In this document: positions 77 through 10,104 of the stretch, piece after piece
Layout: the number at the start of each line of letters is the position of its first letter
Position numbering within the stretch: the first letter of the stretch is position 1
IMG/VR virus record: IMGVR_UViG_3300047564_000689
Location: 1 to 23,300 of that record
Length of the DNA: 23,300 nt
Origin: a virus
Direction: 5' to 3' (one strand)
Notes under the pieces: model-generated
What the model was told of the DNA's origin: nothing
Databases searched by the model: none
Seen by the model: the letters and a program-made list of their open reading frames with translations, nothing else
Made by a program: the position numbers and the translations under genes

Positions 77-102
77 AAGAAAAGCCGGGCTTTCACCCGG
101 CT
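77..102 (-). terminator. Intrinsic terminator after int/attP
   Basis: On the minus strand a 7-bp GC-rich stem (AGCCGGG with CCCGGCT, + strand arms 83-89 and 96-102) with a 6-base loop is followed by TTTTCTT. This is the first terminator-like signal after int and would end the MarR-int transcript just past the attachment site. On the plus strand the hairpin has no T-run, so it is called for minus-strand transcripts only. Confidence 0.7.
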
Positions 103-134
103 CTTGTCCACTACTCAATCTCAGTCTGGCCGCG

Positions 135-174
135 AACCTGAAACTAGCGCGTCTACCAATTCCGCCACATCCGC
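135..174 (-). other. attP: attP candidate: 5' half of tRNA-Leu
   Basis: Read on the minus strand, 174 to 135 begins GCGGATGTGGCGGAATTGG and continues TAGACGCGCTAGTTTCAGG. This is the acceptor strand, the D-arm and the 5' side of the anticodon arm of a bacterial tRNA-Leu, with a CAG anticodon position. After the anticodon loop the sequence no longer pairs or resembles a tRNA, so it is a fragment and not a functional tRNA. It lies 160 bp beyond the int stop codon. I recall that P-SSP7 has a 42-bp match to a host tRNA-Leu gene downstream of int, and this has the same layout. Use as the integration core is inferred. Confidence 0.75.
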
Positions 175-335
175 AACTGGCACAAGGTCAACCGGCGCAA
201 TCGATCTCAAGGATTTTTTGGCCGTTTTCCTGGTGCATTCGCAAATTGAGACTCACAGAGATCGGAGTCATTTGCTGGCGGAAGCGTAGCAGATCGGGGG
301 TCACTAGTCGCGCTTAGTCAGGAGCTAGTCCAGAC

Positions 336-1214
336 TCAGATCGCATTAATGGCGTCGTAACGCGCTTGGTCGGTGACCTTGGCGTACCGCAGCGTGGTCT
401 CCACATTGCTGTGACCCATCAGACCCATGAGGGTGCGGATCGGTACACCGGCTTCGGCGCACCATGTGGCGAACGTGTGGCGCAGGGAGTGGAAGGTCCA
501 CTTGTCGTCTTTCTTAACAGAGTAATTCCTTACTTTTTTGAAAGCACGAATCAATTGGTCCTTACCACCTGGCCAGTCATCTCCAAACAGCAAGGTATTG
601 CGCGAGGCATACTCTGTCCGTTGGGTCATGATCGGCTTGATGCGCTCATGAACAGGGACCGCACGGAAGTTCTTGGCCTTGGTTTGAAAGCCCTCTCGAC
701 CACCGATGTAGATCTGACCTGTTCCCAGGTCGACATCCTGCATCCGCAGCTTGAGTAGCTCTCCTTGACGCATCCCTGTGTAGGCAGCAACCACGATGAT
801 GGCGGCAACATCATCCCGCGAGAACGGGTCAATGGCTGCCTCATACATCTGATCCACCTCCTCCTTTGTGAACCACGTCAACCGGTGTTCACCTTCCTTA
901 CGTCGCTTGAATTTGGGAGGAGTGATTTCTGTCACGCCCATCGACGAGCAATGATTCAACACCGTGGATACGGCACTGATAACTCGATTGATGGTGGAGT
1001 CGGACATGTTGCGTTCCTCTTCCAAATCAATACACGCTTGGTTCATCACCATGGGCGTGATTTTGGCTAGTGGAAAAGAATTGCCAACACAATTGGTAAA
1101 GTGTTGACAGTTGTAGGTGTTGGTAGCAATAGAAGCACCGTGCCTCCATGTATCCCTGGTTCTGAAGGTGAAGTCGACCGCATCACCCCACGTTGTAATG
1201 GATTTACTGACCAT
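336..1214 (-). CDS. int: Tyrosine recombinase (phage integrase)
   Basis: A 292-aa site-specific recombinase of the lambda-integrase family, which would integrate phage DNA at the adjacent tRNA-Leu-like site. All catalytic positions are visible: Arg149 in TGMRQGEL, a Lys at 179 or 181, His242 and Arg245 in HSLRH, His268 in MGHSN and nucleophile Tyr277 in TLRYAKV. Residues 1-105 form the core-binding region. There is little room for a separate arm-binding domain, so it is on the short side. The ATG at 1214 lies inside the end of the upstream MarR-like gene (11-bp overlap, ATGGTCAGTAA), which suggests translational coupling. The gene looks intact. Excision would probably need a directionality factor, and none is recognisable. 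Confidence 0.95.
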   Translation of the reverse strand: MVSKSITTWGDAVDFTFRTRDTWRHGASIATNTYNCQHFTNCVGNSFPLAKITPMVMNQACIDLEEERNMSDSTINRVISAVSTVLNHCSSMGVTEITPPKFKRRKEGEHRLTWFTKEEVDQMYEAAIDPFSRDDVAAIIVVAAYTGMRQGELLKLRMQDVDLGTGQIYIGGREGFQTKAKNFRAVPVHERIKPIMTQRTEYASRNTLLFGDDWPGGKDQLIRAFKKVRNYSVKKDDKWTFHSLRHTFATWCAEAGVPIRTLMGLMGHSNVETTLRYAKVTDQARYDAINAI

Positions 1215-2687: not shown

Positions 2688-2713
2688 AAAAAAGGGGAGG
2701 TCATTAGCCTCCC
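2688..2713 (-). terminator. Strong intrinsic terminator
   Basis: Minus-strand GGGAGG CTAATGA CCTCCC C followed by TTTTTT: a 6-bp GC-rich stem with a 7-base loop and a run of six T. It lies 8 bases after the stop of the 55-aa gene and closes the first early transcription unit (4685 to 2722). Confidence 0.9.
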
Positions 2714-4505: not shown

Positions 4506-4685
4506 TTAATTAATGACAAATGTGCAATCTGGATGATGATCTTCTGACCAATACACTTGTGGCAATCCGGAATCGCGGCAGTGATCATTTAAGCGGTCAA
4601 CTTCATCATCAGCTTGCTGTTCGGTAAGGTGAGAATAATGGACACGTACAACATTGTTAGTCTTGGAGTAGATTGCAAAAGTCAT
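4506..4685 (-). CDS. Small hypothetical protein, 59 aa; first gene of the early unit
   Basis: Start set at ATG 4685 (MTFAIYSKTNNVVRVHYSHL...) because AAGGAG stands 6 bases upstream in a leader copy. An in-frame extension to 4727 would run through that leader. The protein has a strand-strand-helix-strand look (FAIYSKTNNVVRVHYS, TEQQADDEVDRLNDHC, PQVYWSEDHHPDCTFVIN). No family is named. The 12-mer CAACCTTTCCAC (4704-4715) upstream recurs at 16-27. Confidence 0.7.
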   Translation of the reverse strand: MTFAIYSKTNNVVRVHYSHLTEQQADDEVDRLNDHCRDSGLPQVYWSEDHHPDCTFVIN

Positions 4686-4867
4686 GGTGGCTCCTTGTGA
4701 TTTGTGGAAAGGTTGAAAATTTCCCAAGGATGGGAATAGGACAGACAGCGAATCGACGCTGATATAAACGGCTGGCCGTTCTGTCCATTTAGTTGTGTGT
4801 TGCGTCCATATTGTTATATATGAAACCCGATTCAGTTTGCCCTAACCCATAGCGTCCCTGTTGATAT

Positions 4868-5028
4868 GCACCGGGAGGTGTCTGGCGGCAGTGACCTACT
4901 CCCACTTCCTGCGAGCGGTGGCCGGGTTCAATTGTCGAGGTTCGGATTGCGACTCGCAGAGCTGATCGTGCTGGTCTGGCGATCGGGATGGGCCGGTGTC
5001 GTTCCGGTTTCCCTCTCGCTTGAACCCA
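4868..5028 (-). ncRNA. Candidate structured RNA with partial 5S rRNA resemblance
   Basis: A GC-rich block between AT-rich flanks, read on the minus strand. Complementary arms are TTGAACCC (5020-5027) with GGGTTCAA (4924-4931), CTCGCAG (4953-4959) with CTGCGAG (4909-4915), GATCG (4964-4968) with CGATC (4980-4984), CCGG (4993-4996 with 5004-5007), and a terminal hairpin CACC/GGTG at 4868-4879. The first two interleave as A-B-A'-B', the order of a pseudoknot. The 5' part AGCGAGAGGGAAAC ... CCCATCCCGA and the 3' part GGGAGTAGGTCACTGCC resemble the corresponding ends of bacterial 5S rRNA. The middle is longer, and the closing helix I strand is missing. No T-run follows. It may be a phage regulatory RNA or a decayed captured rRNA piece. 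Confidence 0.4.
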
Positions 5029-5057
5029 GTATTGCCCCTTACCGTTCCACCCGTCAA
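5028..5057 (-). promoter_or_regulatory. Candidate sigma-70 promoter for the structured block
   Basis: On the minus strand TTGACG (+ coordinates 5052-5057) and AATACT (5028-5033) are separated by 18 bases. The -35 matches the consensus at five of six positions and the -10 at four of six. The predicted start near 5021 falls at the first paired arm of the RNA candidate. It was found by eye and is not unique enough to be certain. Confidence 0.35.
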
Positions 5058-5149
5058 CAGGTCAGGCCAAGGCTTAACACTGGTTTAACAATTGGGGCAG
5101 GGCTGCTGATTGAATAGAACCGCACGATCTATATATATACCAATGTATT

Positions 5150-5163
5150 AGTACACTTGTACT
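5150..5163. promoter_or_regulatory. Operator-like dyad
   Basis: AGTACA and TGTACT form a perfect 6-bp inverted repeat with a 2-base centre, next to an AT-rich run (TATATATA at about 5130-5137). The spacing and symmetry suit a dimeric winged-helix protein such as the MarR-like product. No second exact copy was seen in the window. Confidence 0.3.
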
Positions 5164-5277
5164 GGTGTGGCGACAGATGGCATGATGATGATACTGCGAA
5201 TCATTCTCAATAAGCCAACACTATTGACGTTAGATTAACAATACATCAGTACTAGTTGTCAGTATTTCCTACTAGAA

Positions 5278-5373
5278 TCAGTAACTAGCGCGGCCTATTT
5301 GACAGGAAAAGGGGGGCATGGGGGTGAATCCTGCGCCCTTACCATGTCGATAGGCTTCAGAAATTTCTGTCAT
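5278..5373 (-). CDS. Possible 31-aa peptide after the YkgJ-like gene
   Basis: ATG 5373 overlaps the stop of the YkgJ-like gene as ATGA. The frame reads MTEISEAYRHGKGAGFTPMP and continues PFSCQIGRASY to a TGA. A GGAA lies just upstream. The stop/start overlap and the protein-like composition favour a real peptide, but 31 codons is short enough for chance. Confidence 0.4.
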   Translation of the reverse strand: MTEISEAYRHGKGAGFTPMPPFSCQIGRASY

Positions 5374-5693
5374 TTTTCCAACGACACCAGGAAGGACGGA
5401 TCCAACCCCGCTTCCTCGATCATCTGATTACACCCCATCATGTTGAGCTGATACCACTCCTGTTGATCCAGACCCAACACCACTCCCCCCATCTTGATGT
5501 TGCAGATCAACGGACGTTTCATATAGACCGAACATTTACCATCCTCCGTCAACATCTCACAGGATCCATCATCCCGTACCTTGTAGGGAAACCGTTCCAC
5601 CAGCTCCCTCAAGATTGGATGTTCCCAGCACCCCTCCAGGACGCTCTGTACGCGCTTACAGCACTGAGCGCACCCAGTACACGGATAATCCAT
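5370..5693 (-). CDS. YkgJ-type cysteine cluster (Zn/Fe-binding) protein
   Basis: A 107-aa protein from ATG 5693 (TAATG overlap with the upstream stop, GGAGG eight bases before). The GTG 15 bases upstream is inside the ribosome site and is less likely. The N-terminal Cys5-x2-Cys8-x2-Cys11-Cys12, then Cys45, Cys54 and CSVYMKRPLIC (54-64), are the signature of the YkgJ family, a putative zinc- or iron-chelating domain. Members often act in redox or modification chemistry, but no reaction is established. The protein is close to a minimal domain. Its location behind thyX in a three-gene overlapping unit suggests a role in nucleotide or DNA metabolism; this is inference. Confidence 0.8.
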   Translation of the reverse strand: MDYPCTGCAQCCKRVQSVLEGCWEHPILRELVERFPYKVRDDGSCEMLTEDGKCSVYMKRPLICNIKMGGVVLGLDQQEWYQLNMMGCNQMIEEAGLDPSFLVSLEK

Positions 5694-5974
5694 TAGACAC
5701 GCCTCCACGGGGCTTCTAGACGCATCTCAGGAAGTAATTCAGATGTAGGACTATCCACCTCCGTATAAATCGGATCAGGTAATGACACCTCAGGTGGATG
5801 TACCTGTTCATACTCTTCAATTGCCCGATCCACCGTCTCCTTTACCCGTGCTTCGATCACCAACCCCTCCAACCACACCAGCAGCCCAAGGAGAAGGTGA
5901 TCAATCCAAGGTATGTCCCGTTTAAGGGAGCGATAAAGAACTTTAAAGTCCTCCAGCTTTAATTCTTTGTCCAC
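5693..5974 (-). CDS. Hypothetical protein, 93 aa
   Basis: MDKELKLEDFKVLYRSLKRD... A charged N-terminal helix, an amphipathic or hydrophobic helix (WIDHLLLGLLVWLEGLVIEA, about 23-42), then an acidic, Pro-rich tail (EEYEQVHPPEVSLPDP). The hydrophobic stretch is interrupted by charges, so membrane insertion is uncertain. It starts 16 bases inside the end of thyX and ends in a TAATG overlap with the YkgJ-like gene, so it is made as part of that unit. It is not recognised. Confidence 0.7.
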   Translation of the reverse strand: MDKELKLEDFKVLYRSLKRDIPWIDHLLLGLLVWLEGLVIEARVKETVDRAIEEYEQVHPPEVSLPDPIYTEVDSPTSELLPEMRLEAPWRRV

Positions 5975-9063: not shown

Positions 9064-10104
9064 TTAGGACTTCTTCTTCCTTTTAAGTGAATCTAGATAC
9101 TTAGATCCATCCAGTTTTTCACCGGAGAAGTTGGACTCGGTGTTGAACTTGCTGGTCAGCTTAGAAGCAGAGGAGGCTTGAGCTTTATCCTCACGATCCT
9201 TCATCCGACCAACCATGTCCTTCATGAGGGGGTTGTTGGTCTTGCTGGTCCCGTAATTGCCAGATTCGCGATTAGCTGTAGAAGCAGAAACACGACGCTC
9301 AGTGGGCTTAGCAGGAGCTGCCGGTGCCTTAGGAGCGCTGCTACGGGTCACAGAGGACGGCATCCGGGCAGAAGATCCTGAGCTTATTGCTGCGCGGGAT
9401 GACGTTGCACGTGCCGGGGGCGGAAGCTTGGGTGCATCGGGAGCCTTAGCTTTGTCGAGGCCGTAGTTGCTACGCGAAGCTTGAGTGTCGTATAGAGTTT
9501 CATACATCCGTGAAGCAAGCGTGGGGCTACCTCCACCACCAGAAGTCTTAGGTTTGGCGGCGCTAGGATTGACCCTGCGGCCAGCACCAGGAGTCGTTTG
9601 GAAGTTAACATTGCTGCTGTTTTGGCCGGTGCGTCGGGGAGTGGCCTGACTGCTACCGCCATTACCCCCACTCGGCTTTCCTTGGTTTTTGGTGACAAAC
9701 GGGTGGTTGGCAAGTTTGTTGAAGCCACCTGCCACATTAGCGCCCTGAGCTGCAATAGCGGGTAGAACGAGAGCTTTACTGGCTGCGCCTTTTAGACCAG
9801 CTTTTGCAGCAGCCTTTGCCGTCGAGGCGGCTGCTGCTTGTGGCACACTCGCGCTTGCAGGCTTAGGACGTGCAATAGAACCTGAGGGCCTACCAGCACG
9901 ACCACCTGCCTGCCCACCGGTAGGTCGTTGGCCTGCGCCACGGTTATTTGTGGGGTCTACTACCTGAGCATTCCATGATGCAGGAACACGTACCGTCTTG
10001 TCTCTGGTGCCTGCAATCGGTTTTGTTGGCTTACCAGCCCGACCACCAGCTTTGCCACCAGTTGGGCGCTTGTTGCCGCCACGATTGTTACTAGGAGATG
10101 CCAT
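9064..10104 (-). CDS. Basic, low-complexity Gly/Ala/Ser/Pro-rich protein
   Basis: A 346-aa protein with disordered composition throughout. Two near-identical basic units (residues 6-26 and 53-73, each with NNRG, RPTGG and AGGRAG) are followed by an Ala-rich stretch (about 86-125), Gly/Ser/Asn-rich linkers, a Pro/Ala/Arg part and a helical, charged C terminus ending LDSLKRKKKS. It starts 2 bases after the upstream HNH stop. The strong positive charge suggests nucleic acid binding, for instance a packaged or packaging-assisting DNA-binding protein. Other possibilities are a minor virion protein or a condensate-forming RGG-like protein. I know no homologue. Confidence 0.75.
   Translation of the reverse strand: MASPSNNRGGNKRPTGGKAGGRAGKPTKPIAGTRDKTVRVPASWNAQVVDPTNNRGAGQRPTGGQAGGRAGRPSGSIARPKPASASVPQAAAASTAKAAAKAGLKGAASKALVLPAIAAQGANVAGGFNKLANHPFVTKNQGKPSGGNGGSSQATPRRTGQNSSNVNFQTTPGAGRRVNPSAAKPKTSGGGGSPTLASRMYETLYDTQASRSNYGLDKAKAPDAPKLPPPARATSSRAAISSGSSARMPSSVTRSSAPKAPAAPAKPTERRVSASTANRESGNYGTSKTNNPLMKDMVGRMKDREDKAQASSASKLTSKFNTESNFSGEKLDGSKYLDSLKRKKKS

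Follow-up and report, generated by a model that had tools for sequence, protein, structure and literature searches.

The early operon of a T7-like cyanophage appears to be headed by a structured leader RNA with a host-type BoxA, and our preferred reading, to which we assign a probability of about 0.6, is that this leader would load host NusB and NusE (S10) and let transcription read through terminator-like hairpins. The leader lies in a 23,300-nucleotide stretch of viral DNA (IMG/VR record IMGVR_UViG_3300047564_000689), called the window here and taken at its full length, and the features that bear on it are collected in Table 1. As we envisage it, host RNA polymerase would start the early transcript on the minus strand, at a promoter some 300 nt in from where we place the genome end; the BoxA in the emerging leader would draw host NusB-NusE(S10) and other Nus factors to the polymerase in the style of an rRNA operon; and the Nus-modified polymerase would withstand pausing and intrinsic termination and pass both terminator-like hairpins that it meets after the leader, before it reaches the phage RNA polymerase gene. 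The phage would probably be borrowing the host antitermination machinery by way of an rRNA-type BoxA. In Escherichia coli rRNA, boxA is both necessary and sufficient to recruit the Nus complex (PMC10250234). The argument is built, at the level of sequence, on the position of the leader, the conservation of its promoter, the match and enrichment of its BoxA, the covariation of its structures, and the terminator-like hairpins; from these we infer that the leader is transcribed, binds Nus factors, and causes antitermination, as well as the parts played by its two structured elements, a hairpin (HP1) and a downstream element (class I).

Table 1. Features of the leader and the early operon in the window, with their strand and the basis on which each was assigned
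Feature	Positions	Strand	Basis
Conserved motif AGAAATTTCTGAAG	5355..5368	-	matching motif in S-TIP37
Early sigma-70-type promoter, TTGACG-N18-AATACT	5028..5057	-	sequence; conserved in relatives
Hairpin HP1 (stacked helices GCGA/TCGC, GGGA/TCCC, CCGG/CCGG; heptaloop AACGACA)	4979..5019	-	stacked helices and heptaloop
Variable linker, possibly a second hairpin	4944..4978	-	inspection; TCAGG/CCTGA in L006, CCGCG/CGCGG in L014
BoxA-like GAACCTCGACAATTGAACC, core GAACCTCGACAAT	4925..4943 (core 4943-4931)	-	match to cyanobacterial rRNA box
Class I RNA element, divergent member, GTAGGTCACTGCCGCC ... TGGGTTAGGGCAAACTG	4823..4924	-	covariance model R1
First likely early ORF, 59 aa, AAGGAG ribosome-binding site upstream	4506..4685	-	ORF list and inspection
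Terminator-like hairpin within the early operon, 2.2 kb past BoxA	2695..2713	-	conserved in L006
Integrase, early operon	336..1214	-	protein annotation
Terminator-like hairpin past the integrase	80..105	-	conserved in L006

The window is part of a T7-like cyanophage with an integrase: its megablast matches are T7-like cyanophages of Synechococcus and Prochlorococcus (S-SRP01, DSL-LC07, S-CBP3, S-B28, S-TIP37, and others), and its minus strand encodes, in order, tail and internal virion proteins, an endolysin, HNH nucleases, the terminase large subunit, thymidylate synthase, small early genes, and the integrase, with the gap at 4728-5369 forming the boundary between the late and early genes. 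The S-TIP37 counterpart of the motif, AAAAATCTCTGAAG, begins 19 nt ahead of the 150-bp terminal repeat, and by analogy this distance, applied to the window motif, places the packaged genome end near 5349. The GC-rich island that had drawn attention to the gap (GC content 62% at 4868-5057; 44% and 41% in the 200 nt on either side) is thus put about 300 nt inside the inferred end, with packaging genes on one side and early genes on the other, where T7 has its early promoters. The earlier note had proposed that the phage makes a regulatory RNA here, from a dedicated promoter and between its packaging module and its early module; that part of the proposal stands. Three other observations concern the same gap and its edge. 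A block GACAGAAATTTCTnAAG...ACCCCCATGCCCCCC (window 5308-5372), which many relatives conserve past their thymidylate synthase region, is probably a terminal-repeat or terminase-cut region; a 112-aa protein adjoining the genome end (5370-5708) has a CxxCxxCC zinc- or iron-chelating domain (Pfam PF03692, E 2e-7), and tblastn found no relative of it in cultured phages; and a 48-nt stretch (4739-4786), perhaps a mobile element or a regulatory one, is 87.5% identical to S-CBP2 1032-1079, within an annotated hypothetical gene, the rest of the leader being unrelated.

Loci of relatives were collected through similarity to two window proteins. One of them (L006) can be aligned over the larger part of the gap (4668-5400), with 78% identity, and L014, L010, L020, L101, and others align in part. 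The promoter-like pair noted from the sequence alone was confirmed at 5057-5028 on the minus strand, and its N18 spacing is kept in L006 (TTGACA-N18-TACCTT), L014 (TTGACA-N18-TATGTT), and L101 (TTGACC-N18-TACCTT), with a promoter ahead of the element also detected in many further relatives. Since the region has about as many promoter-like and terminator-like sites as chance would give, the case for both kinds of site depends on this sort of conservation.

For cyanobacterial rRNA operons, the antitermination box A has been given as GAACCTTGAAAA plus D4 CTGCATA (PMC8461337), and the marine picocyanobacterial box, from the reverse complement of a primer, as GAACCTTGACAACTGCATAG (PMC9769826). In public genomes this pattern recurs between the 16S and 23S genes of many cyanobacteria, the host spacer box being GAACCTTGACAACTGCATA, in agreement with the PMC9769826 primer, and a close variant, GMACCTGGACAACY, stands upstream of 16S in picocyanobacterial rRNA leaders. 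The window core GAACCTCGACAAT satisfies the host-clade core pattern GMACCTNGAMAAY, and over its full length the window box is identical to the host box at 14 of 19 positions, its 3' part, TTGAACC, being the portion that deviates; the aligned leaders of relatives have GAACCTnGAcAAcTGAATA in common, which matches the cyanobacterial box A. Among 107 de-duplicated loci (818 kb), drawn by protein similarity and hence independently of the BoxA motif, the GMACCTNGAMAAY core occurs 18 times on the sense strand and never on the antisense strand, while 200 column-permuted patterns give a sense-strand mean of 0.53 and a maximum of 4 in the same loci. Most of the 18 sense sites fall in leaders, as far as their positions were compared with genes. 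The cultured phages S-TIP37, S-CBP3, and DSL-LC07 have one match each, directly before the first early gene; in the other six of the nine cultured podoviruses (S-SRP01, S-CBP2, Syn5, NATL1A-7, S-B28, and P-SSP7) the box is absent or unrecognised, so that it is common rather than universal.

The box lies on the putatively transcribed strand, 84 nt past the -10 element in the window and 6-10 nt past it in many relatives; in the group to which the window belongs, 84-88 nt that include HP1 separate promoter and BoxA. Across all viral contigs, a promoter and a BoxA 4-14 nt apart were found in 80 stretches, compared with 21 when the box was reversed, and after de-duplication in 61 distinct sites compared with 17, and only the real box shows a peak, at a spacing of 8-9 nt. 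This spacing suggests that in many phages the BoxA starts near +1 to +3. In the predicted fold of the full leader the box is partly paired, which, like the deviating 3' part of the box and the cultured podoviruses without a recognised one, speaks against our preferred reading.

The compensatory changes among related phages that the earlier note had looked to as a check were found in two places, HP1 and the class I element. The HP1 loop (AACGMCA) plus stem, with altered stems, is common to nine phage loci (the window, L006, L014, L101, L008, L165, L180, L208, and L240; the loop of L008 is AACACGA), and control heptamers with comparable stems are less frequent. The HP1 architecture is the minimum-energy fold in eight of the nine sequences, L208 being the exception, and the 66-nt window stretch that holds it has z = -4.3, a value matched by 0 of 200 shuffles; the window is the strongest case, and only four of the nine reach z < -1.5 with few equal shuffles. 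In the HP1 alignment (A2), 12 cells are changed on both sides, compared with 5.9 for shuffles, none of 500 of which reach this number, and the count is lowered by imperfect alignment of the outer helix.

The class I element was modelled from 21 relatives (alignment A1, covariance model R1), with the window outside the training set, and its conserved ACTGCCGCC ... TGGGTTAGGG stretch picked out 26 viral contigs. Covariation in A1 exceeds that of all 500 shuffles (0 of 500) and of slid controls; a larger alignment (A4) gives stronger covariation but was fitted to the model and is biased toward it. The best R1 match in the window, at 4823-4943, comprises BoxA plus the element and scores 33.6 bits (E 7e-6), the runner-up scoring 13.3 bits, and L208 and L014, whose P1 pairs differ, score 61.5 and 51.4 bits. 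Because the window's own class I helices fit weakly, we regard it as a divergent member, backed mainly by primary sequence. The class I element is a covarying RNA element without a match among the Rfam 15 models, and a scan of 16 relatives likewise gave no known RNA family at gathering score.

That HP1 and the class I element each covary, and were detected independently of one another, would also be expected if the leader were the target of some unknown protein, whether of the phage or of the host, or were cleaved by RNase III like T7 early RNA, and acted in processing, stability, or translation, with the likeness to BoxA secondary. The presence of several differing structured elements behind BoxA in different phages fits this explanation as well. 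At least two such elements were seen besides class I, one of the form AGCACACCG...CGACAACCGGCATGGGTT...GGTGTGG and one of the form CCGTTGCGACGCCGCGG...GGCCTGGATG, drawn respectively from L165, L185, L063, L075, L079, and S-CBP3 (L396), and from S-TIP37 (L395), L087, and L094, so that the same box is followed by differing structures. What leaders with unlike structures share, however, is just BoxA, often almost at +1, and we therefore consider a structured leader of that other kind unlikely.

Downstream of the leader, antitermination at BoxA would have terminator-like hairpins to act on. The hairpin within the early operon has a counterpart at 6519-6537 of L006, where place and stem are the same and the loop is changed, and the one past the integrase recurs in L006 at 9129-9154, just ahead of the phage RNA polymerase gene (9229). 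A hairpin is also present between the integrase and polymerase genes of S-CBP3; the sense strand of S-TIP37 yielded none between integrase and RNA polymerase, and a terminator ahead of the polymerase gene is accordingly not universal. These hairpins also bear on the possibility that the leader is a decoy that titrates NusB and S10 off the host rRNA operons and so lowers rRNA synthesis during infection. Its BoxA does match the host rRNA box, and early transcripts can in general be abundant; yet a single BoxA per genome, at the head of an operon and on the coding strand, is a better fit to action in cis, as are terminator-like hairpins downstream of the leader, and a decoy seems to us quite improbable.

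The host side was considered through genomes of the picocyanobacterial host type. NusB is encoded in all four genomes tested, and a search for Rho in the tested genomes gave weak similarity only, far under the family cut-off. To our knowledge, cyanobacteria lack Rho. We tentatively suggest, at fairly low odds, that in the T7-like cyanophages, with their apparently Rho-less hosts, a host-type rRNA BoxA and the new structured RNA form an N-independent antitermination leader that controls whether host RNA polymerase gets past the hairpins ahead of the phage RNA polymerase gene, and that could gate integration versus lytic growth in phages that bear an integrase. As an observation on integration itself, a stretch downstream of the integrase (window 133-175) shows a 42-nt identity with S-TIP37, S-TIP28, and S-CBP2, resembles tRNA-Leu genes, and is a probable attP for integration at host tRNA-Leu, a site at which other cyanopodoviruses have been reported to integrate. 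With the tRNA-Leu-like identity placed there, an attP in the island was rejected.

The location of the conserved sequence, some 300 nt inside the inferred genome end, could point instead to a role of the DNA itself in packaging, injection, or as a replication origin, with the RNA folds incidental. Compensatory base-pair changes and the strict strand bias of BoxA indicate RNA, and the conserved end motif is a distinct site, 5355-5368, which makes a DNA-level role very improbable.

The island had further been described as 5S-like, possibly a remodelled rRNA capture, on the strength of a short resemblance, which no tool confirmed, to the 3' portion of certain 5S genes, and this explanation can be dismissed: cmscan with all Rfam models gave no match in the window at gathering score or at E<=10, RF00001 run alone gave 7 bits (E = 4) at 4935-4956, away from the parts that had been named and short of its gathering cut-off of 38 bits, and the supposed 3' end of a 5S gene is the conserved GTAGGTCACTGCCGCC of the class I element, a conserved element that is not 5S. 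What looked like 5S in this phage DNA has a different cause, and the part that does resemble rRNA sequence is the BoxA at 4943-4925, another sequence, which had been missed. No tRNA or tmRNA was found. The view that it holds no convincing protein frame is borne out, as the plus-strand 83-aa ORF across it is interrupted by stops in L006 and L014, and a coding reading was rejected. The interleaved arms described earlier (8 bp at 5020-5027/4924-4931 and 7 bp at 4953-4959/4909-4915) are indeed perfect complements in A-B-A'-B' order, but they are at chance level, at least one 8-bp arm pair being present in 88 of 500 dinucleotide shuffles, and neither pair is retained in L006 (78% identical over the gap), L014, or L208; the pseudoknot was rejected on both counts. 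In the 8-bp pair, the 5' arm (5027-5020) falls after the -10 box and ahead of the likely +1 and is presumably mostly untranscribed, and the minus-strand fold of 4868-5030 has z = -1.5.

The classical settings of BoxA are rRNA operons and lambdoid phages. For a long time Nus factors were regarded as serving rRNA exclusively, lambdoid phage excepted (PMC5725501), and non-lambdoid Nus-dependent coliphages exist (PMC11893012). The cyanophage leader resembles the antitermination leader of rRNA operons (boxB-boxA-boxC; NusA/B/E/G, SuhB, and S4; PMC10250234) in placing a host-type BoxA in a non-coding leader after a sigma-70-type promoter. As rrn boxB precedes boxA, so HP1 precedes BoxA in the window; unlike the rrn leader, the phage leader heads protein genes rather than rRNA, and in many relatives BoxA stands nearly at the 5' end and is not preceded by a hairpin. 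We know of no rrn counterpart of the class I element, the structured element that follows BoxA in the window. With the lambda nut sites (boxA-boxB, the boxB hairpin downstream of boxA being recognised by protein N) and the mEpimmI-type Nus-dependent non-lambdoid coliphages (PMC11893012), the leader shares a boxA in a phage early leader and, presumably, Nus recruitment, whereas the order and fold of the structured elements differ and the phages are T7-like cyanophages rather than E. coli siphoviruses. The put RNA of HK022 (PMC9378689), likened here by description, is also a structured nascent leader of early operons, and the cyanophage leader may similarly act in cis on RNA polymerase; put, however, works on the polymerase by itself, whereas this leader carries BoxA. 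The manA, wcaG, and PhotoRC-II motifs (PMC2864571) are likewise structured cyanophage RNAs but sit upstream of metabolic or photosynthesis genes, and the window and the scanned relatives score below every Rfam gathering threshold.

A BoxA leader in T7-like cyanophages was not described in the literature searched, which covered few subscription journals, and the portion seen of the literature that joins cyanophage, boxA, and antitermination yielded host ITS primers and no such leader; the leader family therefore appears to be undescribed. If our preferred reading of BoxA-directed antitermination is correct, the hijacking of Nus factors would extend to another large group of phages, whose hosts have no evident Rho gene, and would offer a handle on how these cyanophages govern both the opening minutes of an infection and their RNA polymerase gene.

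Similar leaders were seen beyond those discussed above. A further family, in which BoxA is followed by GGATCGGGCGGTGCCGGAGGCATCGCGGG...GTCGGGCGGG or variants (L146, L160, L172, L206, L207, L228, L402, L416, L419, and L421), often stands directly after a promoter and gives weak R1 matches of 21-29 bits in the members searched. Three viral contigs (L191, L198, and L204) carry the BoxA-like GAACCTnGAmAACTGAATA tens of bases before apparent phage tRNA genes, which suggests that BoxA leaders stand on phage tRNA operons too. Finally, a promoter and a BoxA-like box spaced by 11-14 nt occur in L405, L410, L436, L455, L408, and L438, whose flanks are unlike those of the cyanophages considered here, so that BoxA leaders may, to judge from these contigs, occur in other phage groups.
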